Virus record (IMG/VR): IMGVR_UViG_3300027861_000081 | Span: 1-37,986 of that record | Strand: one strand, 5' to 3' | Source: a virus | Length of the DNA: 37,986 nt | Shown here: positions 14,333 to 36,585 of the stretch, piece by piece | Numbering within the stretch: position 1 is the stretch's first letter | Layout: the number at the start of each line of letters is the position of its first letter | The notes under the pieces: generated by a model | The model's database searches: none | What the model saw: the letters and a program-made list of their open reading frames with translations, nothing else | Told to the model about the DNA's origin: nothing | Translations under genes and position numbers: made by a program

Positions 14333-17300
14333 ATGCCGGAAATTGTACATGTCTTCCAATCAGGGAGAATGAACAAAGATCTTGACGAAAGACTTGTTCC
14401 AAATGGAGAATATCGGGATGCGTTAAATTTAGATTTAGCAAACTCAGACAATGGCAACATTGGCAGCCTACAAAATATTCAAGGAACCATTCAGCTTAGA
14501 GGCAAAGAAGGAACCGGAGCGACCTGGACTGGCAATTTTATTGATGCAATGTCAAACCCCGTTTGTATTGGTTCATATAGAGACGATATAAATGAACGTG
14601 TATATTGGTTTATAGCTTCTGACAATATTAGTGCAATTGCAGAATATGATCAAGTAGCTAATACTATTAGTCCTATATTAGTAGACACACAAAATATTTT
14701 AAAATTTAACGAGCAGTATCTTATAACTGCTATCAATATTATTGATAAACTTTTATTTTGGACAGATGATCAAACTGAACCTAAAAAAATTAATATTGAA
14801 AAGTTTAAAACAGGTTCTACAGACTTTACAACACATACTAAAATACCTCTTTACAATCAAACTAGCGAAACCTATTCAACAACTTTAACGGGACAACCAG
14901 ACTTTATAGAGGAGGATGTAACGGTAATTAAAAAATCGCCCCTTACTGCTCCTTTATTAGATATGGCTGCAAGTAAATTTGGTAATGATATTCCAGGTAC
15001 CGGCGTGACACCTGTTACAACAGCGTATACGGTAACTGGGCTAGAGAACTTTACATATGTACCAGACCAAGTTACAGCCCCAGGTGACACAGAGTCTATG
15101 CCTCCACACGGAGTATATGATGATAATATTGCTACAGATCCCACTTATTACCAAAATAGTAATTTACCTAGTACTTATGGCAATGGGATTGACATTACAG
15201 TTAGCTCGTCTGTTCAAGGCGTTTGGGTGCCTGGTGTTGATGATATTATTATATTAAAAGGCTCTCGTGCTAATGAAAATAACGAGGCTTTCAATTATGA
15301 AATTAGGGCTCTTGTAATCGGAGTAAGCGATGTTACTGTAAAAATAAAAATATTATCTATATCTGCTGATATACTAATTTTTACAACCCCAATAGTATGG
15401 GAAGCAACGCTTGAGGAATCAGAGCCATTATTTGAATATGTATTTCCTAGATTTGCATATAGATGGAAGTATATAGATAATGAGTACTCTGTTCTTTCAC
15501 CGTTTACCGAGGTTGCTTTTATTGGCACTGAATTTGAATATGTATCTACTGATGGGTATAATTCGGGCATGTCAAATAATATACGCAAGCTTGTTATTAA
15601 TGGATTAACTTGGGGAAGCCAAGAGGTGGTTGAGCTTGATATATTATATAAAGCATCAAATAGCCAGGCTGTATATACAGTAGAGACTATAAAAAGAATT
15701 GACTATACTAATTTAAACGGAAGCTTAAATAATTCTTTTCAAATAACGAGTGAAATATTTGGATCGGTTATACAGGCAAATCAATTATTAAGGCCATGGG
15801 ATAACGTACCGCGTCAAGCAAAAGGTCAAGAGATAATTGGTAACAGAATAGTTTATGCTAATTATTTGCAAAATTATAATGTACCTACCATTGCTATTAA
15901 CGCGCGACCGTTTAGTCAGCCACATCCGAACGAAGACTCTGATAATAATACTAATGACGCGCAAAAATCAATTAAGTCAATTCGGCAATACCAAACCGGT
16001 ATCGTATTTAAAGACAAGTTTGGTAGAGAAACACCAGTTGTAACAGATAAAACAGCGGGGCTGGAATTTCCTATTGGAACATCGGGTAGCATAAATAAAA
16101 TTCAAATAAATCCAACAGGTTCAGCTCCTTCTTGGGCTACTCACTATAAGGTATTCATAAAAGATATATCTAATGAATATTATAATTTAGCACTAGATAG
16201 ATATTATCAAGCTGAAGATGGTAATGTTTGGATTTCTTTCCCGTCTTCAGAAAGAAATAAAGTAACCGAAGATTCTTATTTAATATTAAAAAAGCAGCAC
16301 GCTACACCTCAGGCTGTTAATAATTTATTTAAATATAAAATATTATCTATAGCAAATGAGGCCCCAACTTTTATAACAAGAAGAAATAAATCTGTTGCTA
16401 GAGCTACAGTTGAAATACTTGGAAGCTCACAACCTCAGCGAGATGCTGTATTTTTTAAATTTGACGGGCCCTCCGCGGACTCAAATCCTAACTTTGCGCA
16501 AGGATTTACTTCTAATTCATCTTTACGAATAAGCACTGGTAGCAATTCAACTGATACTTATAAAATACAATCTGGGGGACCAACTGGGGTTGGTGATACT
16601 TATAGCGTTCAATTAGACGAGCCATTAGGGAATGAAGCTTTTTTCTTAAATGATTTAGGAGAGGGTGATGAAATAACAATAGTATTATTTGAAGAAGAAG
16701 ATAAGATACTGCCGGAATATAGTGGTAGATTTTTTGTTAAAATAAATAGAGACTTTGGCTTCGAGCAAAATGTAATTGATACCTTCCCTCTTATATCTAC
16801 AGATTACGGTATAAAAGACTCTTTTGGAATTCTTCCATTTAAAAATCAGGGTAATGGCGATGGTGGTCAATTTGTTGTTTGGCGCGATTTTGGTAATACA
16901 AGTGGCAGTAGCAGCAGAAGAAGACAAGCTGGGAATACATCGCCTTGGATGTACCCTGGCGAGGGCGGCGATAATACTAAGCTTATAATTATAATGCAAA
17001 GTATTCCTAGAGACCAGGCTAGTGACCCCGCACAAATGTTAGGGGGAGTATTAGACCCTTTAAATAAAATTGGGACTATTCTAAGATTTGCTGATGCGGA
17101 CGGGAATGTTGGTGCAATATATACTATAAAAGAAACAGTAAGGTCTTTCGACAGAAGGGGGATGAGCAGCAGTAATAGTAATTACACAAACGCCACCAAT
17201 GGTAGACTTGAATGGGAAATAACACTTGAAGAGCCGTATGAGGATCAGGCTATATTTACAGGCAGGACGGGAACAAACCCAATATCCGAAATACAAATAT

Positions 17301-20167
17301 TAGAAAAGGTATTAACGGATGACAATAAAACGTTGTCAAGCTCTAATCCCGCAATATTTGAAACAGAACCTCGTGAAGCTGTTGATTTAGATATATATTA
17401 CGAAGCAAGCGATGCAAAACCTATTGCTGAATTTAACAACTCATTAACTATAGATTATCATAATGTTTTTGCTTTTGGAAATGGGGTTGAATCTAATAGA
17501 ATAAGAGATGACTTCAATGCTGTTACTATTGATAAAGGTGTTAAAGCTTCTTCTATAGTTGATGGTCCATACTCGGAAGAGCGCAGAGGGAGTGGATTTA
17601 TATTTTCACAAATATATAATTCAACATCAGGGATAAATAGATTAAATCAATTTATACAAGCCGAGCCAATAACAAAGGATATAAATCCTATATACGGCAC
17701 AATACAAAAACTACACGCAAGAGATACCGATCTTATATCTTTATGTGAAGATAAATGCTTACGTATATTAGCGAATAAAGATGCTTTATTTAATGCGGAT
17801 GGCAACTCAAACATTACATCAAACACCAATGTTTTAGGTCAAGCCGTGCCTTACGCCGGGGAATATGGAATATCTAAAAACCCGGAGTCTTTTGCGGATT
17901 ATGCTTTTAGAACATATTTTTCTGATAAAAATAGAGGGGCAGTTATAAGATTATCAAAAGACGGTATAACTGTTATATCGGACAACGGCATGAGTGACTT
18001 TTTTGCTGACAACTTAAGAACCTCAAATAAAATAATTGGTACCTACGACGAAGACAAAGGAATATATAATATTACTTTAAATAAATTGTCCTCTGATTGG
18101 CAAGAACAATTAAGCGCTGGGCAAGATTATAATTTAACTGCAGAATGTGATTCTCCAAGTGCCGCCACTGGTTTGGTGTCACAAACAACTGTGTCGTTTA
18201 AAGAAGAAGTTTCCGGTTGGACAAGTAGAAAAAGCTTTATTCCAGAAAGCGCTATATCTTTAAACAATATATATTATGCATTTAAAGATGGTTTAATATG
18301 GGAGCATAACGCATCGGCTGTATATAATAATTTTTATGGCACACAATATAATAGTTCTTTTAATGTATTAATTAATGAGCTGCCACAAATTGTAAAAGGA
18401 TATAGTGCCTTAAACTACACTGGGACAGAGTCTAGAGAATTAGAGTATTTGTATAATAATAAATGGTATTCTTTAGCTGAAGTTAATGCAAATCAAATCG
18501 TACCAATAGCAGTTCAAACAAAACGTGAGGGATGGTTGGTTAATTATATAAGAACAAATCTTGAGGCTGGCGAAATTAAAGAATTTGAAAACAAAGAAGG
18601 CAAATATTTTAATTATATAAAAGCATTAGAAGTTTGTAAAACTGGAGAGGGCATAGGTTCGCCTGAAACAGTTGTTCCAGACCCACAAAATTATATTTTA
18701 ACAATCACGATAGATGAAGCATGTAGCTCTGAAGGAGGCGTAACACCTGATACATTTACGGAAAATTTATGGTATTTATGGAGTAAAGAAGCTGTCGCTA
18801 CAACCAATATTTCTAATTTTGTTAGTAATGATGAGGTTATCTGCGCTTTAGATAATTTTTATATTTCTGTAAATGGAGACTATAGTGATATTGCACTAAA
18901 CGGACAGATATTTAAATATTTAGGGACGGATGGGTTTGTTGTCGGAACTCAATTATATAATAATTCTGACCTAACACCCGTAACAGGACCTTTAGCTTAT
19001 GTCACTGGCCCAATCCCTAATATTCATCCAAATTTGGACCCCGATAATCCTACGCCCACCCCTAATACTTACAATGTTGTATTAATAGACGCGTCCGGTG
19101 TAATTAGTTCTATAACGCAGTATAATACAGTGCCCGATTGTAATGCTGTTGACCCATATGTTCCGGTAGAAGGCCAAAACGCTAGATTTATAGCGCGTAA
19201 ACCAACCGCTCCATATTTTGGTTTATTTGATGAAACTTTAGCCGAAGTGACTTCTCCTTATGTATTTGCTGATGTACCTGGTGGTGGTATAGGGGCGGCA
19301 GCGGTGGCTCAAGTAAGTGATAACTATACTTATATGCTGGTAGCCGGAGTAGGCACTCGCGAACCAGTTTATTTATCGACTAACAACGGCGAAAACTGGC
19401 AGAGCTTAGGCTTTTCAGCGTATGTAGGTGAGACGCACATGTCTAAGTCTGGCCAAACTATGGTGATTGAAACTAGCGACTTAACAGTTAAAGTTTCAAA
19501 TAATTTTGGAAACAGCTTTACAACTATTAACTTAAATGATATAATTACGCTAGGGACAAGCGTCACACTTATAACTAGAACAGCGCTGTCCTCGGGCGGA
19601 GCAACTATAATAATAACCGTACGGGTTAATGGCCTTTACCCTAATAATCCATTTCGTATATTAAAAAGTACTAATTACGGGGCTAGTTTTAGCGACATAA
19701 CTGATAATGTTGGTTTTCCTTTTACGGGAGCTAATAGCTCTGTAGACATTCAGGACAATTTAGTATCGGGGGATGGTAAGTATGAAATATACTTTAATTT
19801 AAGAGGGGTTTCTAGATATTCTGATGATTACGGTCAGACGTTTGTTGATAAAGCCTACCCACAAAGTGATTGGAATGAGAGGGGCAAAATAAACGAAACT
19901 GGGCAGTATTTTATGCTATCCAGTAGTGCATTGCCAGCCGTTTATTCAACTGATTTCGGGGTTTCTACATCTTTAAGCAGCATCCCAGGTGCTACCCAAT
20001 TTGATTCAGGGGTAAGCAATTCAGGCAAGTTTTCTTTCACTACAGGTTCTAACACATTCCCTAATTATGATATTAAGTTTAGTAATGATTTTTTTAACAC
20101 ATTTATTAGTGTCAATTATAATACTGCAAACGTACAAACACCTTTCATATTAATAGACGTAAGTTAA
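14333..20167 (+). CDS. Giant tail hub/nozzle protein with C-terminal Asp-box propeller
   Basis: This is a 1944-residue, beta-rich protein directly after the connector genes. The N-terminus (GRMNKDLDERLVPNGEYRDA, then LNLDLANSDNGNIGSLQNI) is the typical start of the large tail-stabilisation or nozzle/muzzle proteins that close the tail of P22-like and crAss-like short-tailed phages. The body is strand-rich with many Asn, Ser, Tyr and Asp. From about residue 1640 to the end, Asp-box motifs repeat: STNNGENW (1682), SNNFGNSF, STNYGASF, SDDYGQTF (~1830), STDFG and SNDFFNTF. Asp boxes mark sialidase-type beta-propellers, usually carbohydrate-binding or hydrolysing. No sialidase Arg triad could be assigned, so glycan binding is more likely than cleavage. 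The fusion suggests hub and receptor-binding roles in one chain. Confidence 0.75.
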   Translation: MPEIVHVFQSGRMNKDLDERLVPNGEYRDALNLDLANSDNGNIGSLQNIQGTIQLRGKEGTGATWTGNFIDAMSNPVCIGSYRDDINERVYWFIASDNISAIAEYDQVANTISPILVDTQNILKFNEQYLITAINIIDKLLFWTDDQTEPKKINIEKFKTGSTDFTTHTKIPLYNQTSETYSTTLTGQPDFIEEDVTVIKKSPLTAPLLDMAASKFGNDIPGTGVTPVTTAYTVTGLENFTYVPDQVTAPGDTESMPPHGVYDDNIATDPTYYQNSNLPSTYGNGIDITVSSSVQGVWVPGVDDIIILKGSRANENNEAFNYEIRALVIGVSDVTVKIKILSISADILIFTTPIVWEATLEESEPLFEYVFPRFAYRWKYIDNEYSVLSPFTEVAFIGTEFEYVSTDGYNSGMSNNIRKLVINGLTWGSQEVVELDILYKASNSQAVYTVETIKRIDYTNLNGSLNNSFQITSEIFGSVIQANQLLRPWDNVPRQAKGQEIIGNRIVYANYLQNYNVPTIAINARPFSQPHPNEDSDNNTNDAQKSIKSIRQYQTGIVFKDKFGRETPVVTDKTAGLEFPIGTSGSINKIQINPTGSAPSWATHYKVFIKDISNEYYNLALDRYYQAEDGNVWISFPSSERNKVTEDSYLILKKQHATPQAVNNLFKYKILSIANEAPTFITRRNKSVARATVEILGSSQPQRDAVFFKFDGPSADSNPNFAQGFTSNSSLRISTGSNSTDTYKIQSGGPTGVGDTYSVQLDEPLGNEAFFLNDLGEGDEITIVLFEEEDKILPEYSGRFFVKINRDFGFEQNVIDTFPLISTDYGIKDSFGILPFKNQGNGDGGQFVVWRDFGNTSGSSSRRRQAGNTSPWMYPGEGGDNTKLIIIMQSIPRDQASDPAQMLGGVLDPLNKIGTILRFADADGNVGAIYTIKETVRSFDRRGMSSSNSNYTNATNGRLEWEITLEEPYEDQAIFTGRTGTNPISEIQILEKVLTDDNKTLSSSNPAIFETEPREAVDLDIYYEASDAKPIAEFNNSLTIDYHNVFAFGNGVESNRIRDDFNAVTIDKGVKASSIVDGPYSEERRGSGFIFSQIYNSTSGINRLNQFIQAEPITKDINPIYGTIQKLHARDTDLISLCEDKCLRILANKDALFNADGNSNITSNTNVLGQAVPYAGEYGISKNPESFADYAFRTYFSDKNRGAVIRLSKDGITVISDNGMSDFFADNLRTSNKIIGTYDEDKGIYNITLNKLSSDWQEQLSAGQDYNLTAECDSPSAATGLVSQTTVSFKEEVSGWTSRKSFIPESAISLNNIYYAFKDGLIWEHNASAVYNNFYGTQYNSSFNVLINELPQIVKGYSALNYTGTESRELEYLYNNKWYSLAEVNANQIVPIAVQTKREGWLVNYIRTNLEAGEIKEFENKEGKYFNYIKALEVCKTGEGIGSPETVVPDPQNYILTITIDEACSSEGGVTPDTFTENLWYLWSKEAVATTNISNFVSNDEVICALDNFYISVNGDYSDIALNGQIFKYLGTDGFVVGTQLYNNSDLTPVTGPLAYVTGPIPNIHPNLDPDNPTPTPNTYNVVLIDASGVISSITQYNTVPDCNAVDPYVPVEGQNARFIARKPTAPYFGLFDETLAEVTSPYVFADVPGGGIGAAAVAQVSDNYTYMLVAGVGTREPVYLSTNNGENWQSLGFSAYVGETHMSKSGQTMVIETSDLTVKVSNNFGNSFTTINLNDIITLGTSVTLITRTALSSGGATIIITVRVNGLYPNNPFRILKSTNYGASFSDITDNVGFPFTGANSSVDIQDNLVSGDGKYEIYFNLRGVSRYSDDYGQTFVDKAYPQSDWNERGKINETGQYFMLSSSALPAVYSTDFGVSTSLSSIPGATQFDSGVSNSGKFSFTTGSNTFPNYDIKFSNDFFNTFISVNYNTANVQTPFILIDVS

Positions 20168-22854: not shown

Positions 22855-23451
22855 ATGGTAGGACAAGTAATTGGCGGCCTCACTAGTATAGCTAGTGGAA
22901 TGATTGGCAGCGGAAAAAGAAAACGAGAGCAAAGAGCTGCTCAGGCGGAATACAATCGTAGAAAGGCGAGCTTTGAAAATTTAGATACTTCTAATGTATA
23001 TGCTAATATGCAAAATACTATGGAAGATTTAACTGTTAATCAAGAACAGGCCCAATTCCAAGCTGAACAGTCGCAGCAAGGCTTATCTAATATAATGGGG
23101 TCTATGCAAGGTGCGGCTGGCGGATCTGGAATTGCAGCTTTAGCCCAATCATTGGCGGGCCAACAGCAGCAACAAGTTAGGCAAGCTTCTATGGATATTG
23201 GCCGGCAAGAACAAGCTAACCAAATGGCTGAAAGACAACAAGCTGGTAACCTACAATTATATGAGGCTAAAGGCGAGCTACAATCACGTGAGGCTGAAAA
23301 AGAAAAAACCGAAACATTATTGGGTATGTCTCAACAAAGATTAGGCGCCGCAAATGCAGCAAGACAACAAGCTACTAACGCTATTGTCGGAGGAGTCGGG
23401 AGCATAGCTTCAGCGGGGGCTAGTTTTATACCGGGAATGAGGCAGGAATGA
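22855..23451 (+). CDS. Internal virion/ejection protein candidate (gp14-like organisation)
   Basis: This 198-residue protein has hydrophobic Gly/Ala/Ile segments at both ends (VIGGLTSIASGMIGSG near the start and AIVGGVGSIASAGASFIPG near the end). Between them is a long Gln/Ala/Arg/Glu-rich helical middle (QAQFQAEQSQQGLSNIMGSM, AGQQQQQVRQASMDIGRQEQ). The small GxxG-type ends plus amphipathic Gln-rich middle are the usual look of podovirus internal proteins such as T7 gp14, which leave the capsid and insert into the outer membrane during DNA ejection. It precedes two further putative internal proteins. There is no sequence-level homology that I can claim, so this is an architectural inference. 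Confidence 0.7.
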   Translation: MVGQVIGGLTSIASGMIGSGKRKREQRAAQAEYNRRKASFENLDTSNVYANMQNTMEDLTVNQEQAQFQAEQSQQGLSNIMGSMQGAAGGSGIAALAQSLAGQQQQQVRQASMDIGRQEQANQMAERQQAGNLQLYEAKGELQSREAEKEKTETLLGMSQQRLGAANAARQQATNAIVGGVGSIASAGASFIPGMRQE

Positions 23452-23465
23452 TCAAAATATAAATT

Positions 23466-24884
23466 ATGAGTCAACAATTAATTAAAGGGGAAGCTTTTGC
23501 AAGGCAATCCGCACAACCCACTTGGAACAAAGCTTTTCAAGAAAGTTTTAGTGCAGGCATGCAAAATATTGCTAAAATAAATGCTATTAAAAAAGCTGAA
23601 AAAACCGCCGCTTCTAATAAAGTTGCTAACTATATAAATCAATTAAATTCAGATATTGATTTAACACAACTAACAGGCCCTCAGCAAAATTCGGTTACTA
23701 ACTTTTTAGTTCGGGAGCGTGACAAATATGCTCAAGCCGCATCGCGTATAGCAAAAATTGATGACCCATCATCTAAAGAGTATTTAGATCTTAGAGACCA
23801 AATGAATGGTGTACAAAGATCATTTGCTAATTTAGCTAGCCAGCTTAATAAGTATAAAGAGGATAAAATTTCTTATTTAAAAGATTTTGATGATAAAAGA
23901 ATTTCTGACGGTAATGATATAGGTTCATTAAAAGAGGCCTCTAAAATTTATACTGATGAGGGATCAATGGGTATTGGCCCCGGCGGACAAGTTACTTTTT
24001 GGAATGAAAACAATTTAACTTATGAAAATTATGCTACTATTCAAAAGCCCTTCTTAAAAGATTTTAAAGCTGCAGATAATATATTACAACTTAATGAATC
24101 TATATATAGTGCGGGACATGCTTTGTCGGGGGCTAGAGAAGATATGATACGCAATAAGTTAAAAAACATGATTAACTCCGGTGGCAGAGATACTTTGCTA
24201 TCATTGGCTTCTGATGATTTTTTAATTGAAGGAGGTTTAAATTTACAAGATCCATCTTTATTTGAGCCAGAAAATCAAGATATGCTTAGTGATATGGTTT
24301 TAAATAGTTATATGGATGCGTTGACAAAAACCGCAATACAAGGAGCTAATGATAAAAGACCTGAGCAAGGTATGGGCAAAGGTGGATTTAGCGGCGCTTT
24401 AAAAGATGAAATTGCAACATCTGAGCCTGTAATAAATAATGCTCTTAACTTTTCTATGCTTAGTCAAAATGTACCCGCTGGCCAGCGCGAGCAAAAAACT
24501 CAGTTTCTTGTTAACGAAATTAATAAAATAGATACAGCCTCACAAGCTAAATACATGACTCGTGGTGAACTTTATAATCAATACCTTAATGTAAACAATC
24601 TTGATGATAATAAAGAGGATAGGGATAACTTTAAAAAGGAATTTGGTATGTCTCAAATATATTCTTATAATCCACGATCTTTGTCATTATCTCAAGTTAA
24701 AGGAATACCTGTAAATACAGATAACCCTAAAGAGTTGTATAAGTTTTATTTAGATAATCTTAAATTAAGTGCTAAGGCAAGGAACTATTTTTACGGTAAT
24801 TACGATAACTACATGCGGAATTCCACCACCACACCTACTTCTACAAATTCCTCTACAGGCGGAGGTTCACTAGATAATCTTTAA
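23466..24884 (+). CDS. Internal virion (cargo) protein candidate
   Basis: This 472-residue, mostly helical and polar protein begins MSQQLIKGEAFARQSAQPTW, then NKAFQESFSAGMQNIAKINA, a start I have seen on proteins between the gp14-like and giant internal proteins of related phages. Residues 30-150 form long amphipathic helices with many Lys, Asn and Gln. The C-terminal ~20 residues are Ser/Thr/Gly/Asn-rich and disordered. There is no membrane segment and no catalytic motif. It ends 4 bases before the 2446-residue gene, so the two are probably co-translated and may assemble into the same ejected complex. Function is inferred from context. Confidence 0.68.
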   Translation: MSQQLIKGEAFARQSAQPTWNKAFQESFSAGMQNIAKINAIKKAEKTAASNKVANYINQLNSDIDLTQLTGPQQNSVTNFLVRERDKYAQAASRIAKIDDPSSKEYLDLRDQMNGVQRSFANLASQLNKYKEDKISYLKDFDDKRISDGNDIGSLKEASKIYTDEGSMGIGPGGQVTFWNENNLTYENYATIQKPFLKDFKAADNILQLNESIYSAGHALSGAREDMIRNKLKNMINSGGRDTLLSLASDDFLIEGGLNLQDPSLFEPENQDMLSDMVLNSYMDALTKTAIQGANDKRPEQGMGKGGFSGALKDEIATSEPVINNALNFSMLSQNVPAGQREQKTQFLVNEINKIDTASQAKYMTRGELYNQYLNVNNLDDNKEDRDNFKKEFGMSQIYSYNPRSLSLSQVKGIPVNTDNPKELYKFYLDNLKLSAKARNYFYGNYDNYMRNSTTTPTSTNSSTGGGSLDNL

Positions 24885-24888
24885 TTAA

Positions 24889-27800
24889 ATGGAAAAATTA
24901 TTCAACGCGCTTTCTGAGCAAGGCAAATATACTAAATCTTTTGAAGATTTTCAAACACAGTTTGGATCAGCAGAAGGGCAAGAAAAATTATATGGTGCAT
25001 TAAAAGAATCCGGAGATTACACAAAGTCTTTTGATAATTTTAGTAATCAATTTTTTATTGCAGAACCAGTAAAGACAAACGACTCTGCAAGTGCGGATCC
25101 AGCTGTGGAGTCGGTAAACGTAGATATGGGATCCAACTTGGAAAATGGTTCTTCGGAATTACCAAATGAAAAGAACACTTGGTTAGAAAACTTTTTTGGA
25201 GAAGAAGAAGACGCTGAAGACAAACTTTTTGGCGCTGTAGATTTTGTTAGTGATCTATGGAGATCAGGTAAAGGTGGATGGGCTGTTGGTGCAAGTGTAG
25301 ATGAATCTTTTGATCTATTTAAATCAGAGGGAGGAATGTCTGAAGAAGATGCTGCTGCTCTGGTTGAAGCAGGAAGAAACGTTGAAAGCTACGGTTCTAC
25401 TAATGAGCAAATTGCAGCTTCCAATAAAATGAAAAAACTACAGGAAGAAGGTTATTCTGGCGTTGGAGCTTTTATTACTGCGTATTGGGAGAATCCTAGT
25501 GCTTTAGCTAGTACCATGGCTAGTTCCCTAGCTATGATGGCTTCCAGTTTTTTCGATAGCGAAGAGGTTAGATATAGTGCCGCTGCAGGTTCAGGCGCAG
25601 GAGCTGCTACAGGGGCGGCTGGAGGAGCTGGTGTAGGAGCCGTGTTTGGTGGAATAGGAGCTGTTCCAGGGGCTATAATAGGAGCAAAACTAGGTGCAGT
25701 CAGTGGAGCTATGAGTGGAATTACAGCGGCTATGGAAACGGGGCTTACCACAGCTCAGCTACTGGAAGAGCAAGCTATATCTACAGGTTTAGATTGGGGA
25801 GTAATGACTGACAAGCAAAGAATTAATTTTGTTATGAGTCTTACAAAAAATAAAGATCAGTTTGACGACTTAAAAAACAAAGCTTTAGCTAGAGGTTTAA
25901 CGATTGGAGGAGTCGATTTTGTTGTTAATATGGCTACTTTTGGTGTTGGTAAGCTCGTATCAGGCAGAATAGCTGGATCAGCTGCAAGCGCTTTAACAAA
26001 ACCAGCAACAGGCTTAGCTGCTGGAGCAACAGAATCTATTGGATCTGGTGTAGGGGAGTATTTAGGGCAAAAAGCTGCTGGCCAAGAATTTAATTTTGAA
26101 GAAATTGCTTTAGAAGCTCTTGCAGATAAGCAAGCTACTGTTATTTCTGCTGTCAAAAACATAAGAAAAGGTAATCCATCATACAAGCTTAACGGCGAGA
26201 AAATGAATGGTAAACAATTTTCAGAAGCATTAAAAATAATGGACGATGTCGCTATTGTAAAGGCCGACATTAAAATTGAAGACTCTCCTTCAGTGCAAAA
26301 AATAGTTGATAATAGAAGAGGCAATATAGCCGCTGATCAAAGGGTTGATAGCAGAATAAGCGATGTAGCAGATAGAGCTGAAGCTATTAGACTGACTAAA
26401 GAAAAAAATAAATTAGAAGGTAACAAAGAGGGCAATAAAACAAAGCTAGCTCAAATAAATGGGGAGCTGGAAGTTATTAGTGATAAATATGCAGATTCTG
26501 AAGTTGATGCTACGATTCAAGAAAGACAAGACGCGGTTGCTCAAGCAGCTGATACTAAGTTTGAAACAGAATTTAATAAAAACTACAAAGCTCTTAAAGA
26601 CAAGCAAAAAGAAACTGGCGTTGAACCTGTTATATTTGAAGATGACAATTTATTCGCTGAAACAGCAGCTAAGGATCTTAACGTTACCAAAGAGTACATA
26701 CTTAAAGAAGCACCTGAGGGTGTTTTTGTAGGTGGAGGAAAAGTATATATAAATAAAAATCAAGCTAAAAGAAGTATAAATATAGCCACTGGTAATATTG
26801 GAGCAATATCTGTAGCAAGCCACGAAGTATTGCACCCTATATTTAATGCTTTAATAGGAGGAGCTAAAGCGCAAGGTCAATTTGTTAATCAGTTTAAAAA
26901 ACAAATGACCAGTAAGCAAAGAGCTTATGTTAATAAAAGGTTAAAGTCAGCATATAAAGATCAGCCTGGAGCTGAAGCTATAGAGCTTATGAATATCTTT
27001 TCTGATGGCATAATTAAAAATGAAATTAATTACGATCAAACAACATTTGAAAAGCTAGGAAGCACTATAGTTGATTTCTTTAGATCACAATTAGGGTTAA
27101 CTACAAATGAAATATCTTTTGATGACGGTAGAAGTGTGTTTAACTTTCTTAAAGAATACAATACTAGCATAAAAGCAGGTAAATTAAGCGACAAAGCAAT
27201 ATCCGCTATTAAAGCTGCCGAAACAAAAAATAAAACCACTGTAGCAAAAGCAGGAATTTTACAAGAAGAGCAGTTTTCTAAAACAATAGCAGAAGCAGAA
27301 GCGGCTTTGCAAGAAGCACAGGACGCAGATCCAAATGACCCTAGGTACTTTGACAACTTAGACAAAGCTGAAGCTGCACTAGATGCAGCGGAAGAGGCCG
27401 CTAAAAATCCCCAAGCGCCTGCTCCTAAAGTTAAAACAGAAGACAAGCCTAAGCCTAAGCCAAAAGTAAATAGACCTGAAAAGCCTACCAGAACTACTGA
27501 TTTAAGCCCTAGAGATCCAAAGTCTAAAAAGATCATGGACACTTACAACGAAGGTATGGAGGGCGTCGAAAGAACGGAGTACAAATCAAACAAACCACTA
27601 CCAGCTTCTTTAGAAAGAAAGTTGGTGCCGTTATTTGAAGGGTACATAAATACTATTGTTCAACAAAAGTTTAAGCAATTTGCAACAGAGGCTTTAGAAT
27701 TTCAAGATGCTTTATCTATACTAAGAGCTGAGGTGATTAGCGCTTTACGTACTTATAATCCTTCTAAAAATAAAGATTTAGCTGGTTATGTAAAAAAGAT

Positions 27801-30800
27801 AGTACAAACTAGGCAGTCTTTAATGTTTAAGGAAGCTAATACTGAATTTACATCTAATTTAGACGACGCTAAAGGCGTTACAAACACTACCGATGTTCAA
27901 ACTATAGATAGAAGCGGCACTGTAGAAAGAGGGCAAGCTACATTTGAGGAACTTGACATTGTTGATGATACTTTAATTAAAGACATTAAATCTGATTTAG
28001 AAAAAGAGATTAGGGCTAGAGTACAAAAAGGAACGTTATCAGAAACGGTTGCTGTAAAAAAAGGTCGCGAAACATATTTAGTTACATGGCTTGAGGATTA
28101 TGTAAACAAGCAACTGTTTAAGAAATTATCTAAAAGGTTAGGGGCGATAGGAGAAAAGAATGGCCAAACATTTATCCCTGGAGCTTATATAGACTTTCTA
28201 AACGATCCAAAAACTTTTGATATAATAACTAAAGCTTTGCCGATTAAAAGCATTAAGAAGAGCTATAATAAGTTATTTCCTACTGAAAGAGTTGGCAGAG
28301 AATTAACAGCAGAAGGCAATCCTATATTCAGAATTAAAAAGATTGATAAAAAAGCTTTTTTAACTTATTTTGTTGAAGGCAAAAAGTCTACTATATTAGA
28401 AAGACAAAAGCAATTATTTAGAGAAATACTTGAGCCATTGGCTAAACAAATTGTTGCTGATTATGCAACGCCTGAAAATATAGCAGCTCTTAAACCAATT
28501 CAAGCATTAGCTCCAGCGGAATCTATAGATGTAGTTGAAAATATAGTTATTGATGCACAGCTTAATAATTTAGAATCTAAATTAGATAGATACAAAGGCG
28601 AACAAGCTGGGTTTGATATTATACAATTTTCTAAAGAAGCAACAGGTAAATTTGACAGAAAAGAAATTACATCTGTTAAAGTTAGAAAAGCTTTAAATTT
28701 AAACGAACATTCAGAAGAATTTTTATCTTTACCGGAAAGCTTACAAATGGCTACTAATTGGGTTAGAGAAAGTTTACAATTAAAAGGGGCGACAATAGGA
28801 GGGTTAATATACGAGATATTGACGATAGGCCGAGTAGACGCTAATGCTAAAGATTTAAACCTTAATATTAAAGTAAAAACTTTAAAAGGAGAGGTTGATT
28901 TTGATAGCAACAGACCGGATATACAATTAAGTATAAAAAAAGACGGGCAAACTAAAGATATTAATTACGAGCTTAAACAAAGCGCTATTGCAAGGTGTGG
29001 CCAAACAACTTTAAGAGCCGATTTTAATAATGACGAAGTATTTTCTGTTTCAAGCAAAAGAAAAAATATCGCAGGAGACAAAGTTAAAATGAATTTTGCT
29101 GACATGCCCACTGGTCGGCAACTTAAGTTAAGCCTAAAAAGTGTTCAAAAAGATCTTAGACAAATATTAGATATAATAAATAAAATTGACGGTTCAAATA
29201 TAAATACTATACCAATGGGTGGGACCATGAGTATAGAAGCTGTTAACGCTGTTAAAAAATCTGAAGCATATAAAAGAATAGCAAAAGTTGAAACAGGCGC
29301 TGACGGACAAACAGTCTCCAATCATTACAACGCAAAAGATACTCATCTTTTTCAAATAGGAGGCATAGGTACTTTATTAATGGGGCCAGACATATATGGT
29401 CTTAATAATAATGATTTAACTCCTGTTCAAAATTTAACTGATGTTAAATTTAAAGGCAACTTACGAATTAAATTTAATTATAGATATAAAAATAAAAAAA
29501 GGATTGGAGCCTCTATTAGTTTAATATCAGAGCCTATAATAGCAAATCCAAAAAATTTAAGTAAGTCACCTATAAATTTAGACACAAAACAAGGTACAGC
29601 TGCGCTATATGATAGATTACAATTTTCTAAAACTGCCCAACCTAGTTTAACGCAATTTAGCAAAACAGTAAACAAAGCTAAAGCAATGATAAACCGTCCT
29701 AACGCACCTGTTAAAGGTATCAGCGTTTGGGATTTTGATGACACTCTAGCTACAACTAAAAGTAATGTTTTATATACATTGCCAGATGGTACAAAGGGAA
29801 AGATTAACGCAACTGAGTTTGCATTACAAGCTGATAACCTTGAAAAACAAGGCGCTGAATTTGATTTTAGTGAATTTAGTAAAGTAATGAAAGGAGCAAA
29901 AGGTCCTATGTTTGACAAGGCCATTGCAAGAAATAAGAAGTTCGGCAATAGCAATGTTTATATTTTGACCGCTAGGCCAGCAGATTCAAAATATGCTATA
30001 CACGAGTTTTTAAAAGGTATTGGCTTAGATATTAAATTAGAAAATATATTTGGATTAGGTGATGGTACGGCTATTGCTAAAGCTAAATGGGTTATTGGAA
30101 AAGTTGCCGAAGGGTATAATGACTTTTACTTTGCAGATGACGCATACAAAAATGTTAAAGCAGTACAGGAAGTATTAGAGCAGGCGGATGTTAAATCAAA
30201 AGTTCACCAAGCTAAAGTGCAATTTTCTAAAAATCTTAATAAAGACTTTAATAATATAATACAAGACGCTACTGGTATTGAGGCAGCAAAAGATATATCT
30301 ACTGCTAAATCTAAAATATTAGCTAAAAAGAAAGGGAGGTTTAAATTCTTTATTCCGCCTTCTGCTGATGATTTCGCTGGATTGCTATATAAGTTAACAG
30401 GTAAAGGTACTAAAGGTGAACAGCAACAAGCATGGTTTAAGCAAGCTTTATTTGACCCCTTTGCAAGAGGAATGCGCGAATTTGAAAGCTATAAGCAAAA
30501 TGTTACCGCAATTGTAAACCAATTAAAGAAAGATATTAAAAACGTTCCTGCTAAATTAAAGAAAGTAAACGAAACAGGATTTACTAATGAAAATGCAGTA
30601 CGGGTTTATCTTTGGGATAAAAACGGGTTTAAAATTGATGGATTAAATAAGGAAGATATTCAAGAGCTGATAAGCATAGTAGAGAATGATAAAAATTTAT
30701 TAGATTTCGCAGATCAAATGGATGCAGTTTTAAATGGTTATCCAGAGCCACAAAATGATTGGCTAGCTGGAACTATAACAACTGATGCTATTAATATGAT

Positions 30801-32229
30801 TAATACTTCTAAGCGAGCTGAATTTCTTCAAGAATGGCAAACAAATGCTGACGCTATATTTTCAAAAGAAAACTTAAATAAACTTAGAGCTGCATTTGGT
30901 GAAAATTATGTAGAGGCATTGCAAGACATGCTTTACAGGATGAAGACTGGCCGTAATAGACCATCTGGCGCAAATAAGTTAACTAATCAGTTTATGAACT
31001 GGGTTAATGATTCTGTAGGTACAATAATGTTCTTTAATACAAGATCAGCATTGCTACAAACATTGTCTACTGTAAACTTTATAAACTGGGGAGATAATAA
31101 CCCTATAGCCGCTGCAAAAGCATTTTCTAATCAAAAACAATTTTGGAGTGATTTCGCTATGTTATTTAATTCTGATTTCTTAAAGCAAAGAAGATCTGGT
31201 CTAAAGAATGATGTTAACGCAGATGATATTGCAAACGCAGCAGAAACAGCCACTAACAAAACAAAAGCAGTTTTATCTTCGTTACTTAAGGTGGGATTCT
31301 TACCGACTCAAATAGCGGATAGCTTTGCTATTGCACTAGGAGGAGCCTCGTTTGTTAGGAATAGAATTAATAAATATGTATCAGAGGGGCTAACAAAACA
31401 AGCCGCTGAAGAGCAAGCGTTTTTAGACTTTCAAGAAATAGCAGAAGAAACGCAGCAGTCATCAAGGCCTGACAGAATATCACAACAACAGGCAAGCCCA
31501 TTAGGGCGTATTATATTGGCTTTTGCAAACACACCTATGCAATACATGCGTTTAACCAAAAAGGCCTTCTTAGATCTTAAAAACGGACGTGGCGATGCAA
31601 AAACTAATATAACTAAGATAGCGTATTATATGGCTGTGCAAAACATTATATTCTCTAGTTTACAAGCCGCATTATTTGCAAGTTTGTTTGAAGATGATGA
31701 TGAAGAATTAAACAATAAACAAATTAGAGTAGCAAACTCTATGCTTGATTCTATATTAAGAGGTGTTGGTATATACGGGGCTATTGGTTCTACATTAAAA
31801 AATATAATTATAGAAATTAAAAGGCAGTCTGAAAAAGATAGACCTGATTATACGGTAGCAGCTCAGCGTGCATTAAGCATATCGCCTCCAATCGATTCTA
31901 AGATGCGTAAATTAATGGGTGCAGCGCGAACTTTTAGTTATAAAACAACCCGTGAAAAAATGGTTGGATATGGGTTAGATAACCCAGCATATTATGCAGC
32001 GGGGCAAGTTGTTTCTGCTACTACAAATATACCTCTTGATAGAGCAATACGTAAAGCAGATAACATTAGAGTAGCAATGGATAATGACACTAAGTACTGG
32101 CAATCAGTAGCATTAATGTTAGGTTATAGCCAATGGGATGTAGGTTTAGTTGAAACATCTAAAAATAAAAAGAATAAAACAGGTTTTGGTAAAACAACAT
32201 CTTGGAAAAAAAGTGAATGGAAAAAATAA
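24889..32229 (+). CDS. Giant multidomain internal virion protein (polyvalent-type): zincin, sigma-like, nuclease-like, HAD, membrane C-terminus
   Basis: The 2446-residue product appears in order: two short repeats (4-25 and 36-57, KYTKSFEDF and DYTKSFDNF); a glycine-zipper hydrophobic region (~231-284); a zincin with H645-E-V-L-H649 and a possible third ligand E696 or E699; a helical, Pro/Lys-rich linker (~800-900); a segment resembling sigma-factor region 2 (~905-985); a candidate PD-(D/E)XK nuclease (D1344, E1361-L-K1363); a HAD phosphatase (D1615-F-D1617, ILTARP at 1692, FADDAY at 1748); and a long helical C-terminus with LAFANTPMQYMRLTKKAF and a membrane-like MAVQNIIFSSLQAALFASLF, recalling the LPD38-type domain. 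QFSK occurs at 795, 1246, 1578, 1589 and 1778, near domain borders. Such chains match the polyvalent proteins thought to be injected with phage DNA. Only the zincin and HAD motifs are strong; the rest is pattern inference. Confidence 0.8.
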   Translation: MEKLFNALSEQGKYTKSFEDFQTQFGSAEGQEKLYGALKESGDYTKSFDNFSNQFFIAEPVKTNDSASADPAVESVNVDMGSNLENGSSELPNEKNTWLENFFGEEEDAEDKLFGAVDFVSDLWRSGKGGWAVGASVDESFDLFKSEGGMSEEDAAALVEAGRNVESYGSTNEQIAASNKMKKLQEEGYSGVGAFITAYWENPSALASTMASSLAMMASSFFDSEEVRYSAAAGSGAGAATGAAGGAGVGAVFGGIGAVPGAIIGAKLGAVSGAMSGITAAMETGLTTAQLLEEQAISTGLDWGVMTDKQRINFVMSLTKNKDQFDDLKNKALARGLTIGGVDFVVNMATFGVGKLVSGRIAGSAASALTKPATGLAAGATESIGSGVGEYLGQKAAGQEFNFEEIALEALADKQATVISAVKNIRKGNPSYKLNGEKMNGKQFSEALKIMDDVAIVKADIKIEDSPSVQKIVDNRRGNIAADQRVDSRISDVADRAEAIRLTKEKNKLEGNKEGNKTKLAQINGELEVISDKYADSEVDATIQERQDAVAQAADTKFETEFNKNYKALKDKQKETGVEPVIFEDDNLFAETAAKDLNVTKEYILKEAPEGVFVGGGKVYINKNQAKRSINIATGNIGAISVASHEVLHPIFNALIGGAKAQGQFVNQFKKQMTSKQRAYVNKRLKSAYKDQPGAEAIELMNIFSDGIIKNEINYDQTTFEKLGSTIVDFFRSQLGLTTNEISFDDGRSVFNFLKEYNTSIKAGKLSDKAISAIKAAETKNKTTVAKAGILQEEQFSKTIAEAEAALQEAQDADPNDPRYFDNLDKAEAALDAAEEAAKNPQAPAPKVKTEDKPKPKPKVNRPEKPTRTTDLSPRDPKSKKIMDTYNEGMEGVERTEYKSNKPLPASLERKLVPLFEGYINTIVQQKFKQFATEALEFQDALSILRAEVISALRTYNPSKNKDLAGYVKKIVQTRQSLMFKEANTEFTSNLDDAKGVTNTTDVQTIDRSGTVERGQATFEELDIVDDTLIKDIKSDLEKEIRARVQKGTLSETVAVKKGRETYLVTWLEDYVNKQLFKKLSKRLGAIGEKNGQTFIPGAYIDFLNDPKTFDIITKALPIKSIKKSYNKLFPTERVGRELTAEGNPIFRIKKIDKKAFLTYFVEGKKSTILERQKQLFREILEPLAKQIVADYATPENIAALKPIQALAPAESIDVVENIVIDAQLNNLESKLDRYKGEQAGFDIIQFSKEATGKFDRKEITSVKVRKALNLNEHSEEFLSLPESLQMATNWVRESLQLKGATIGGLIYEILTIGRVDANAKDLNLNIKVKTLKGEVDFDSNRPDIQLSIKKDGQTKDINYELKQSAIARCGQTTLRADFNNDEVFSVSSKRKNIAGDKVKMNFADMPTGRQLKLSLKSVQKDLRQILDIINKIDGSNINTIPMGGTMSIEAVNAVKKSEAYKRIAKVETGADGQTVSNHYNAKDTHLFQIGGIGTLLMGPDIYGLNNNDLTPVQNLTDVKFKGNLRIKFNYRYKNKKRIGASISLISEPIIANPKNLSKSPINLDTKQGTAALYDRLQFSKTAQPSLTQFSKTVNKAKAMINRPNAPVKGISVWDFDDTLATTKSNVLYTLPDGTKGKINATEFALQADNLEKQGAEFDFSEFSKVMKGAKGPMFDKAIARNKKFGNSNVYILTARPADSKYAIHEFLKGIGLDIKLENIFGLGDGTAIAKAKWVIGKVAEGYNDFYFADDAYKNVKAVQEVLEQADVKSKVHQAKVQFSKNLNKDFNNIIQDATGIEAAKDISTAKSKILAKKKGRFKFFIPPSADDFAGLLYKLTGKGTKGEQQQAWFKQALFDPFARGMREFESYKQNVTAIVNQLKKDIKNVPAKLKKVNETGFTNENAVRVYLWDKNGFKIDGLNKEDIQELISIVENDKNLLDFADQMDAVLNGYPEPQNDWLAGTITTDAINMINTSKRAEFLQEWQTNADAIFSKENLNKLRAAFGENYVEALQDMLYRMKTGRNRPSGANKLTNQFMNWVNDSVGTIMFFNTRSALLQTLSTVNFINWGDNNPIAAAKAFSNQKQFWSDFAMLFNSDFLKQRRSGLKNDVNADDIANAAETATNKTKAVLSSLLKVGFLPTQIADSFAIALGGASFVRNRINKYVSEGLTKQAAEEQAFLDFQEIAEETQQSSRPDRISQQQASPLGRIILAFANTPMQYMRLTKKAFLDLKNGRGDAKTNITKIAYYMAVQNIIFSSLQAALFASLFEDDDEELNNKQIRVANSMLDSILRGVGIYGAIGSTLKNIIIEIKRQSEKDRPDYTVAAQRALSISPPIDSKMRKLMGAARTFSYKTTREKMVGYGLDNPAYYAAGQVVSATTNIPLDRAIRKADNIRVAMDNDTKYWQSVALMLGYSQWDVGLVETSKNKKNKTGFGKTTSWKKSEWKK
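27271..30231 (+). repeat. Five QFSK tetrapeptides inside the giant protein
   Basis: QFSK is encoded at 27271, 28624, 29620, 29653 and 30220 (residues 795, 1246, 1578, 1589, 1778). Ser is coded by TCT in four and AGC in one, so conservation is at protein level rather than from a recent DNA repeat. The sites separate the zincin, sigma-like, nuclease-like, HAD and membrane regions. Two other FSK triplets lack the Gln and lie inside domains. Confidence 0.7.
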
Positions 32230-32818: not shown

Positions 32819-32974
32819 ATGAGCTTGAATGAATTTAAACTTTATATTATAAACGGTAGTACGCTAGGAGTAACTACTTTTACACAAATAGAGGACGGTT
32901 TAAAAATAATGCTTTTATTGGTTACTATAGGATATACTATAGCAAAATGGAAAGATATTAAAAAAGAAAAATAA
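32819..32974 (+). CDS. Tiny single-span membrane protein, possible second holin/antiholin (51 aa)
   Basis: ATG at 32819 opens a 51-residue frame: MSLNEFKLYIINGSTLGVTT, then FTQIEDGLK, then one membrane segment (IMLLLVTIGYTIA) and a basic end (KWKDIKKEK). TAA at 32972-32974 shares its last base with the endolysin start, so the two are probably translationally coupled. Similar tiny EFKLY-start, single-span proteins lie beside lysis genes in other marine phages. Possible roles are accessory holin, antiholin or pinholin; sequence does not decide. The main holin candidate is far away at 1872. Confidence 0.75.
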   Translation: MSLNEFKLYIINGSTLGVTTFTQIEDGLKIMLLLVTIGYTIAKWKDIKKEK

Positions 32975-33348
32975 TGTTTAAATATTTTGAATACGAGCAT
33001 TTTGATTCGCCAGACGTACAAGGTAGTGGGCAAATGATGGATTTAAAGATTATTCAAATGCTAGATAAAGCTAGAGCTATATATGGTAAGCCTATATATA
33101 TAACTAGTGGTTATAGAACTGAAGCACATAACGAAAAAGTAGGCGGAGTTTTAGGTTCTTCCCATTTAAAAGGTTTAGCAGCTGATGTATCTGATAATCC
33201 ACGTGGAACTAAAATAGATAGCCGTAATAGGTTCTTAATGCTACAAGCATTGTTTGCTGTAGGTTTTGATAGAATAGGTGTAGGAAACGGCTTTATACAC
33301 GTGGATATAGATACGTCAAAAAAACCAGATGTAGTCTGGACATATTAA
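32974..33348 (+). CDS. Endolysin, M15A-type peptidase (D,D-carboxypeptidase/endopeptidase fold)
   Basis: This 124-residue protein matches the peptidase M15A pattern. SGYRT (45-49), SSHLKGLAADVS with H64 and D71, and HVDID with H109 provide the zinc ligands (H64, D71, H109) and the typical Arg. Such enzymes cut peptide cross-links in peptidoglycan. The length suits a single catalytic domain without a cell-wall-binding module, as usual for phages of Gram-negative hosts. There is no signal peptide, so export needs a holin. The gene is the last one on the + strand, coupled to the tiny membrane protein before it (TAATG), and is followed at once by the terminator hairpin. Confidence 0.88.
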   Translation: MFKYFEYEHFDSPDVQGSGQMMDLKIIQMLDKARAIYGKPIYITSGYRTEAHNEKVGGVLGSSHLKGLAADVSDNPRGTKIDSRNRFLMLQALFAVGFDRIGVGNGFIHVDIDTSKKPDVVWTY

Positions 33349-33385: not shown

Positions 33386-33404
33386 AACTAACTAACTAAC
33401 TAAC
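33386..33404 (-). repeat. AACT tandem repeat (TTAG on minus) at the nrdA stop
   Basis: (AACT)x4 plus AAC. Read on the minus strand it is a run of TTAG units that includes the nrdA TAG stop and puts further stops in all three frames immediately after it. It may be a readthrough and frameshift barrier or simple slippage. It sits between the gene and the terminator hairpin. Confidence 0.7.
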
Positions 33405-35118
33405 CATCGCAAGCTAAACAATCTTCGCTCATCGCTGTAGCTGCAATATCTCCGCGCAGGACGCTCTCCGTTCTGGTATAATATAAAGTCTTTACCCCAT
33501 TTTTCCAAGCATCCATGTGAACCTTATTAAGCCATTTTGGCGTTGCTTCACTTGGGAAAGCTAAATTTAAACTAACCGACTGATCTACGTATTGCTGTCT
33601 CAGTCCAGCCTGATTAACTAATTCTAATTGGTTTATTTCTTTAAACGTCTTATAAACTTCTTTCGCTGGAATATCCGGCCCGACGTGTATAGCATCAAGT
33701 TCTTTTATATCTTGTACAGATCCACCATCAGCAAGTATCTTATCCCATATTTCATTTGTATTTAACTTATGTTTTCTGAGAAGCTTTAAAAGTGTGGGAT
33801 TTTTCCTAATGAACGTACCCTTCGCGCTTTGTTCCGTGAAAACATTAGCGGCCCAAGGCTCAATACCAGGACTAACATTACCACTGAGCTTACTATTAGA
33901 CACAGTAGGAGCAATAGCCCTAAGATGAGTGTTACGATAACCAGTGCCAGCGCACCAAAGAGGTTCGCCATAGATTTCAGAAAGATCTCGGCTTGCTCTT
34001 TCAGATTCAATTTTAATCTGCGAAAAAATACGCCTAGTTTCAAACTGAGCAAGTAACCCTTCAAAAGGAATGCCCTTCTCTTGGAGATGCGTGTGCCATC
34101 CAAGTACACCCAACCCGAGTGCTCGTCCTTTTGTAGCAGAACGAATGGCATTTTCAAAACCTCTAAGTCCTTTGGCTCTTTGAATAAATTCCTCCATAAC
34201 ACCATCAAGAAACCAAATGGCGTCGTATATAAGGTTAGTGTCTTTCCATTCTTCATATTTAGCTAAATTTAGTGACGACAAACAGCAAACAAAACTATGA
34301 TTTTCATCCGTATGCAAAGTAATTTCGCTGCATATGTTTGTCATATGTACTTTTAATCCGTTGTCTTTATATGCTTTTGGATTGTTTTTGTTAACATTTC
34401 CTTTAAACATAATATACGGCTCTCCAGTTGCTTTTCGCTTTCTAATAAGTTTACTCCATCGAGTCCTCGCTTCCGAATCGCCTTGCTCAAGGCGTCGCAT
34501 AAACTTATCACCAACAACTGCGCATTGATGAAGGTTGAGTGACTGTCTGTTAACGTCGCCTTTTGGTTCTCTAATTTCAAGCCACTCTTCAAAATCGTCG
34601 TGTTCAATATTGATATTGACTGATGCTGCGCCTCTGCGAACAGAGCCTTGATTAGTCGCGAGGATAGTTGAGTCGTAGATTTTGCAAAAGGGGACAACTC
34701 CGTCTGATGTTCCATTTCCTGTAATTTTAGCGCCAGCGGGTCTGATTTGATTAATGCCAATGCCAACTCCACCGCCGTGCTTAGCGAGCAACATCATCTC
34801 TAAGTTCTTTTGGCCAATGTCCTGAATCGAATCGGCTACATCGATACCAAAACAAGATATAGGTAAGCCACGGTCAGTGCCGGTATTACTAAGTACCGGG
34901 CTAGCAAGGCAAAGCCAACCATTCCAAATATAATTAAAGAAAGTTTCTGCCATTTCCGGTTTATATAATCTGCGAGCAACCGTTTTACTGACACGCATGT
35001 ATGCTTCTCTAGGTGACTCGTCGTATAATAAATATCCCCCGGATATAGTCTTCTTGTATACGTCGTTATTACCCCACGCAGGGTAATCTTCTCCTTTTTT
35101 CCAGTTTTCATTCCACAT
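33400..35118 (-). CDS. nrdA: Ribonucleotide reductase class I, large (alpha) subunit without ATP cone
   Basis: NrdA makes deoxynucleotides from ribonucleotides using a radical from NrdB. At 572 residues it is much shorter than E. coli NrdA (~760) and begins at the catalytic domain, so the N-terminal ATP-cone that senses ATP/dATP is absent. Visible catalytic features are redox Cys C89 in LPISCFG and C278/C279 in FVCCLSSLNL, the active-site set N261, C263 and E265 in NICSEITL, the radical-path tyrosines Y546-Y547 in LYYTRTES, and the C-terminal reductant pair C567 and C570 in EDCLACDG. The ATG at 35118 follows an A-rich leader with no Shine-Dalgarno. It is downstream of nrdB, separated by two small genes, and is the last gene of the leftward operon. 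Confidence 0.93.
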   Translation of the reverse strand: MWNENWKKGEDYPAWGNNDVYKKTISGGYLLYDESPREAYMRVSKTVARRLYKPEMAETFFNYIWNGWLCLASPVLSNTGTDRGLPISCFGIDVADSIQDIGQKNLEMMLLAKHGGGVGIGINQIRPAGAKITGNGTSDGVVPFCKIYDSTILATNQGSVRRGAASVNINIEHDDFEEWLEIREPKGDVNRQSLNLHQCAVVGDKFMRRLEQGDSEARTRWSKLIRKRKATGEPYIMFKGNVNKNNPKAYKDNGLKVHMTNICSEITLHTDENHSFVCCLSSLNLAKYEEWKDTNLIYDAIWFLDGVMEEFIQRAKGLRGFENAIRSATKGRALGLGVLGWHTHLQEKGIPFEGLLAQFETRRIFSQIKIESERASRDLSEIYGEPLWCAGTGYRNTHLRAIAPTVSNSKLSGNVSPGIEPWAANVFTEQSAKGTFIRKNPTLLKLLRKHKLNTNEIWDKILADGGSVQDIKELDAIHVGPDIPAKEVYKTFKEINQLELVNQAGLRQQYVDQSVSLNLAFPSEATPKWLNKVHMDAWKNGVKTLYYTRTESVLRGDIAATAMSEDCLACDG

Positions 35119-35616: not shown

Positions 35617-36585
35617 TTACCAAATGTCTTCAAAGTCTTCGCCCTCTCCCGCCTTTGAATAATCCGTCGGACGAATAGCGAAAAAATCAGTATGGGTAAC
35701 GCCCCCGGTAAGATGGTAAAACCAATCCAGGTTAGACGCTGCTTCCATGTCGAACGCAAAATAGTTTCCAAGATCATCATAACCAAGTTCAACGAGTTTT
35801 TCATTTGTTCTTTTTCTTATAAAGTGTTTTAAATCGTTAGCGCTAATGCCTTCAATGTCCCCCATCTCAAACATTTTGTCTATATATTTTATTTCAAGTT
35901 TTACCATTGTTTCAGCAGCGGATATTATATCTTTGCGACATAAACCCGCTAATTGATTGTTTTCACTGCAAATATCACGAAACAGTTTACAGCCCATTTT
36001 GCTATGTAAAGATTCATCTCTTACACTCCACTTCATTTGTTGACCAATGCCTTTTAATAAATTTCTTAATTGAAAAGAATAGAGAACAGCAAAAGCAGAA
36101 TATAGACTAACCCCTTCAGCAAAAGCACTAAAAACAGCAAGAGACTTACCAATACCAACAGAGCTTGTCCCGTCATAAGCAACCAAGTTGTCAAACCTTT
36201 GAGCAGTTGCAGGCTCATGTAAAAAGGCTTCATAATCTTCAAGACCCAATGTTTCATTTAAATAACTATATGCGACAGCGTGTATTGTTTCTTGCGAACC
36301 AAACATCATTGCCATTTGTTGTATCTCGTGTTTAGGAAACCATCCAACTACCTTCTGCGTCCAGTAATCAGAAACCGCACACTCAGTTTGCGCAAAGCCG
36401 AGTAATATATTACCGACCAAATTCTTTTCTTCTGGTGTTAATTTTTCTTTCCAGTCTTTAATATCGCCTTGCATAGGTATTTCAGTATGTAACCAAAATG
36501 CCTGTGCTTGCTTTAACCAACCTTCAGTATAATATTCCGGATATTCAAATGGTTTGTACGCTACGCGCTCTTCAAACAATCCCAT
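35617..36585 (-). CDS. nrdB: Ribonucleotide reductase class I, small (beta) subunit with Glu first metal ligand
   Basis: NrdB holds the dimetal cofactor that generates the radical used by NrdA. The 322-residue length is typical. The metal ligands are E68 (FAQTEC), E99 and H102 (SQETIHAVAY), E157 (FAEGV), E191 and H194 (RDESLHSK). E68 lies exactly 31 residues before E99, the spacing of D84 to E115 in E. coli, so the usual Asp is Glu, as described for classes Ic and Id. Y106 is at the radical tyrosine position (ETIHxxxY). The C-terminus EGEDFEDIW is the acidic, aromatic tail that docks to NrdA. The start shares TAATG with the preceding 54-residue gene. Cofactor metal (Fe or Mn) cannot be read from the sequence. 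Confidence 0.93.
   Translation of the reverse strand: MGLFEERVAYKPFEYPEYYTEGWLKQAQAFWLHTEIPMQGDIKDWKEKLTPEEKNLVGNILLGFAQTECAVSDYWTQKVVGWFPKHEIQQMAMMFGSQETIHAVAYSYLNETLGLEDYEAFLHEPATAQRFDNLVAYDGTSSVGIGKSLAVFSAFAEGVSLYSAFAVLYSFQLRNLLKGIGQQMKWSVRDESLHSKMGCKLFRDICSENNQLAGLCRKDIISAAETMVKLEIKYIDKMFEMGDIEGISANDLKHFIRKRTNEKLVELGYDDLGNYFAFDMEAASNLDWFYHLTGGVTHTDFFAIRPTDYSKAGEGEDFEDIW

Follow-up and report, generated by a model that had tools for sequence, protein, structure and literature searches.

We found that a 2446-residue protein encoded in a 37,986-nucleotide stretch of viral DNA (hereafter, the window) joins several unrelated modules, with invariant catalytic residues in its zincin, nuclease and HAD segments, and that a tetrapeptide, QFSK, sits at the module borders from the zincin onward, in or beside unstructured linkers, and is under selection at the level of the peptide. 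This recurrent junction motif, missed in the original prediction for the gene, is the element that specialists would find surprising. On balance, and with reserve, we favour the reading that the protein is a self-processing, ejected polyvalent cargo, whose zincin would cut the chain at the junction motif and whose freed parts would act at entry into the host.

Gene neighbourhood, relatives and class of the protein

The gene (P0001; 24889..32229, + strand, as are all features of this protein given below) encodes 2446 residues with no internal stop, and many independent contigs of IMG/VR hold uninterrupted relatives in its length class; the frame is therefore not an assembly fusion. It closes a crAss-like podoviral late operon. 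The window is a podovirus late block with terminase, portal, structural proteins and a 1944-residue protein, and its source is a marine flavobacterial-type phage, a crAss-like podovirus, whose portal is 43-55% identical to those of Flavobacterium elemo phages, Maribacter phage Panino and an uncultured podovirus. The 1944-residue structural protein (14333-20167) weakly matches, below the Pfam cut-off, the C-terminal domain of the crassvirus muzzle, a likeness to crAss001 (PMC10172136). Directly past the late block lie the genes for the large and small subunits of a class I ribonucleotide reductase (33400-35118 and 35617-36585, minus strand), and a short endolysin/peptidase-like gene (phrog_894; 32974-33348) is located 745 bases past the giant gene.

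Gene order was compared with phi38:1 gp97-gp101, Gundel1_72-74 and elemo_86-90, and these cultured relatives share the series muzzle-like protein, small gene(s), structural protein of ~200 residues, protein of ~450-550 residues and giant "structural protein". In the window, the giant gene is preceded by a gene for a ~200-residue protein (22855..23451, +), in the slot of the gp14-type internal virion protein by an order shared with phi38:1 gp99 and Gundel1_72, and by a gene for a 472-residue protein (23466..24884, +), which by gene order holds the slot of the structural protein phi38:1 gp100. The position remarked upon in the original prediction, directly after these two genes, is thus the slot of the giants Cellulophaga phi38:1 gp101, Tenacibaculum Gundel1_74 and Flavobacterium elemo_90. 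Because the cultured relatives keep the same order, the 2446-residue protein is presumably carried in the virion, and its synteny together with its polyvalent class suggests delivery into the host. phi38:1 gp101 is syntenic, but its homology to every module was undetectable, so that virion status is transferred from it by position only. Gundel1_74 and the elemo giant, which occupy the same slot, likewise carry HExxH, and the former is 25% identical over residues 2161-2299; the QFSK-type motif is absent from both, and similarity to the rest was undetectable.

Scans of IMG/VR yielded 157 distinct relatives in viral contigs, whereas megablast and tblastn searches of 50,697 phage records matched only Gundel_1, over 6% of the giant (139 residues). 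A Pfam search of the window protein gave zero matches above cut-off, and a scan of genome contigs for prophage copies confirmed none. Among the searched proteins, the C-terminal region was found in 148, the zincin in 123, the HAD module in 108, the sigma-like module in 61, module M in 56 and the nuclease in only 10. The nuclease directly precedes the C-terminal region in L029 and L051 and precedes the HAD module in the window protein and L031. To judge from these module profiles, modules recombine freely among relatives, and the particular domain order to which the original prediction attached importance is not fixed. Single-linkage clustering of the unassigned modules merged everything into one cluster. 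Two contigs, L003/L004 (10001-18847), encode a 2948-residue version whose N-terminal region differs from that of the window protein, is ~500 residues longer and is also found in L010. The syntenic giant of the uncultured podovirus MW202828 (L013; 3859 residues) contains HExxH twice, and at its start it matches the N1 and glycine-zipper modules of the window protein.

The 2446-residue protein belongs among the Iyer/Aravind-type polyvalent proteins. It shares with the MPTase polyvalent proteins (PMC5512222) a very large size, a phage gene beside virion genes, several unrelated enzymatic domains (zincin, nuclease and HAD, each with invariant catalytic residues) and a zincin as the hub. Of the domains named for the class, the zincin signature is present and Pfam LPD domains are absent in the window protein, with LPD14 detected in one of 18 long relatives (E 1.4e-5). 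One giant relative with a zeta-toxin/AAA_33 match and the one with LPD14, both members of alignment A7, suggest a wider effector repertoire.

Modules along the chain

The multi-effector reading of the original prediction is well supported, by the gene position described above and by four of its named activities, each of which shows either invariant catalytic residues or a fold that matches consistently. The glycine zipper that it had placed in the chain is present as an Ala/Gly-rich segment at residues 225-300 (25561..25788), helical in AlphaFold model 1. The zincin-type metallopeptidase domain (residues about 570-790; 26596..27258) contains the foreseen HEVLH active-site motif at residues 645-649 (26821..26835). 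H645, E646, H649 and the downstream E699, that is, the HExxH and Glu of zincin metallopeptidases, are invariant in 40 sequences with identity down to 19% (alignment A10), and HExxH occurs in 138 of 140 long relatives. Model 1 shows a strand-strand-helix arrangement, with HEVLH on a single helix and E699 on another further along the chain. A significant PDB match to the module was absent, and its Pfam matches were all under the curated cut-off.

The claimed sigma-like segment was recovered as a sigma-region-2-like domain at residues 866-987 (27484..27849). The top five VIA-align rows, covering residues about 851-988, are sigma factors with Z of 8.9 to 6.4 (moderate for helical folds), and the first eight matches of an independent profile search against PDB sequences are again sigma factors (best E 3.2e-4); the helical fold is that of sigma-70 region 2. 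Because the Pfam Sigma70_r2 cut-off was missed (12.6 bits vs 24), we name the module sigma-2-like, not a sigma factor. A search of five relatives for single-subunit RNA polymerase (PF00940) gave zero matches, the control being equally silent. A conserved alpha/beta domain, M, to which no function is assigned, occupies residues about 1027-1240 (27967..28608), with pLDDT mostly 70-90.

The candidate nuclease of the original prediction corresponds to residues 1250-1577 (28636..29619), where G1305, E1309, D1344, E1361 and K1363 are invariant among ten diverged copies (alignment A9), and the pattern E...D...E-x-K reads as the signature of PD-(D/E)XK enzymes. In model 2, these catalytic residues are carried by an alpha-beta core (H65-83, E87-92, E106-112 and E115-121) of modest confidence, the confidence across the nuclease region being low to moderate. 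A profile search with the nuclease against the PDB found nothing relevant.

The predicted HAD phosphatase lies at residues 1609-1777 (29713..30219). All four HAD motifs (DxDxT, Thr/Ser, Lys and DD; D1615, D1617, T1694, K1731, D1750 and D1751) are invariant, and the fold is that of the HAD family, with the T4 Pnkp 3'-phosphatase as the nearest structure (Z 13.7, 129 residues, 3.1 A), in agreement with a match to the polynucleotide kinase family phrog_415 (E 4.3e-5); a sequence-based search with the HAD profile against the PDB found nothing relevant. The module shares the HAD core with T4 polynucleotide kinase, at 11% identity, and differs from it in having no attached kinase domain. Of the structural matches anticipated for the three enzymatic segments, that of the HAD module was obtained by fold, and the zincin and the nuclease are recognized by their invariant catalytic residues, fold matches being absent. 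The VIA-align rows for the two 1200-residue models include no zincin and no nuclease, the zincin region being barely covered and the nuclease region lying outside the rows, and Foldseek gave zero matches for both models at E<=0.001.

The chain ends in a conserved all-helical region (residues about 1790-2446; 30256..32226), present in nearly all relatives. The membrane-type C-terminus once proposed here is not supported: over the C-terminal third, 19-residue hydropathy peaks at 1.44, short of the usual 1.6 and of the shuffled mean maximum of 1.81.

A peptide motif at the module borders

The window protein has five copies of QFSK, at residues 795 (27271..27282), 1246 (28624..28635), 1578 (29620..29631), 1589 (29653..29664) and 1778 (30220..30231). 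Four of the five copies lie inside stretches with pLDDT<50 (795 and 1246 in model 1 segments 738-743 and 1178-1200; 1578 and 1778 in model 2 segments 326-349 and 538-541), and the fifth, at 1589, adjoins one, directly behind a low-confidence segment of model 2 and next to a homology breakpoint at 1586-1587. At the border between the HAD module and the C-terminal region, the motif is conserved with the consensus [VI][KQ]FSK, and the Ser is retained in 66 of 78 relatives. QFSK occurs 98 times in 149 long relatives versus 5 times in shuffles, and it is absent from every other ORF tested in the window and from 319,153 residues (569 other ORFs) of the same contigs.

Since copies at homologous sites lack independence, the motif was tested by position. 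All-against-all BLAST gave 589 homology breakpoints, 463 of them in motif-bearing proteins. [QK][FY]S[KR] was found within 20 residues of 106 of these 463 breakpoints, as compared with 19.4 under a rotation null (maximum 35 in 1000); because breakpoints of related proteins are not fully independent, the enrichment ratio carries more weight than the count. Five of six control tetrapeptide classes were at the null, and [QK][FY]S[DEN] was mildly enriched at breakpoints (11 vs 3.2).

The flavour of the motif varies with the zincin. Window-like zincins are mostly accompanied by Q before FSK and intermediate zincins more often by K, and the flavour (Q vs K/R) is uniform within 57 of 71 proteins (null, 24). 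The number of Q motifs correlates with the zincin score (rank correlation 0.66; partial, given the C-terminal score, 0.44). Changes between Q and K/R numbered 7 on the zincin tree as against 10 and 12 on two C-terminal trees, 8 against 11 and 12 when the zincin-adjacent motif was left out, and 5 against 8, 7 and 7 in HAD-bearing proteins only; when the C-terminal junction motif was scored alone, the numbers were 8, 8 and 8 and the advantage of the zincin tree was gone. The fit of the motif's first residue to the zincin tree therefore appears, from these sequence trees, somewhat closer than its fit to the C-terminal tree, with a modest advantage. The tree and flavour data are consistent with, and stop short of proving, a cognate protease and site. 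Among the distant relatives, many carry the zincin with few or no copies of the motif, and these would need another site or another mechanism.

Proposed processing and alternative explanations

The mechanism that we favour builds on the role predicted for MPTases in polyvalent proteins (PMC5512222) and on the crAss001 picture of ejected cargo (PMC10172136). The cargo chain would be made late as a single polypeptide, would share the virion interior with the products of the two genes before it, and would leave ahead of the DNA on ejection. The zincin would then cut it, either within its own chain (in cis) or from copy to copy (in trans), at the linker motif h-x-[QK]-F-S-[KR]. Thermolysin-kind zincins commonly favour a bulky hydrophobic residue on the C-terminal side of the scissile bond, and we therefore place the putative cut before the Phe. 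The predicted products are an N-terminal helical/glycine-zipper part with the zincin, the sigma-2-like module with M, the nuclease, the Pnkp-like 3'-phosphatase and the helical C-terminus. Of these, the sigma-like part may act on host RNA polymerase at entry, the freed nuclease may act on nucleic acid, and the phosphatase may mend 3'-phosphate ends. A bolder version, to which we give a little less than an even chance, is that of a phage "polyprotein", in which exchangeable effectors would be split by one standard peptide, the site of the chain's own zincin, with site and protease coevolving, and in which one freed effector would be a virion-delivered sigma-2-like factor. In this version the motif would serve as a universal connector that allows effectors to be swapped without redesigned processing.

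The same motif might instead serve in docking or packaging, for instance as a binding site in the linkers for the portal, tail or a scaffold, and so keep the modules together in a chain that stays whole. Such a role is compatible with the flexible-linker position, the genes remain fused (gene splits were looked for at the motif, and only frameshift-like breaks, several of them inside domains, were seen), and the MPTase-bearing virion RNA polymerase of phage N4 is packaged uncut (PMC5512222). However, docking predicts neither the match between the first residue of the motif and the zincin tree nor the partial rank correlation with zincin type, and we regard this explanation as unlikely, while giving it real weight. 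Less probable still is that a different protease, of phage maturation or of the host, cuts the motif and that the zincin is an effector acting on host proteins. Polyvalent MPTases have also been proposed as effectors (PMC5512222), but QFSK is missing from the other virion proteins of the window and from the 569 other ORFs, where one would look for such sites if a maturation protease of general use were at work, and the zincin is almost always present.

Two further readings deny the protein or its motif an active role, and both are very improbable. That the protein is a tape-measure-like structural protein with decayed enzyme-like parts would suit its location in a structural operon; in zincin, nuclease and HAD alike, however, the catalytic residues are invariant, while the remainder has diverged, to about 20-30% identity in the zincin and nuclease. 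The least probable reading takes the tetrapeptide as a DNA-level recombination joint or gene-assembly scar with no protein role, as its coincidence with the points of module exchange might suggest. The identity of the 12 bases between copies of QFSK is 0.0965, against 0.0936 predicted from codon usage, and the serine is written with both the TCN and AGY codon families, which are not interconvertible by one silent change. The motif codons thus vary freely, which places selection on the peptide and not on the DNA; the reverse codon pattern would be expected of a recombination signal or microhomology, and the motif at one and the same junction is conserved across 78 diverged relatives. The recombination joint was rejected by this codon analysis.

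Autoprocessing of polyvalent proteins by their zincins was predicted in 2017 (Iyer et al., PMC5512222). With candidate sites named to the residue and a 157-member family that varies in protease and site, this prediction becomes directly testable. The main text of that paper mentions no sigma, haloacid, phosphatase or linker, so that the sigma-2-like module, the Pnkp-like phosphatase and the repeated junction motif apparently do not appear in it. In crAss001, the large cargos gp45, gp46, gp47, gp49 and gp50 are stored in the capsid and tail, and the model put forward for them is that they leave partly unfolded, before the DNA (PMC10172136). Three of them are RNA-polymerase-associated, whereas the 2446-residue protein carries a sigma-like module, with no match to RNA polymerase; PMC10172136 describes no processing of the crAss001 cargo, in contrast to the cleavage proposed here. 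If the self-processing reading is true, the motif would provide a rule, legible in the sequence, by which other giant phage proteins of unknown function could be divided into domains.

The sigma-2-like module points to a virion-carried sigma-like factor, and relatives in this group have a sigma factor gene of its own as well. In four of five relatives tested, a separate protein of ~250 residues above the Sigma70_r2 cut-off is encoded on the opposite strand (G001:C1:30365-30595, G002:C1:25543-25686, G003:C1:52186-52413 and G005:C1:53969-54115, in the records of L004, L009, L029 and L024), so that a sigma-directed takeover would suit the group.
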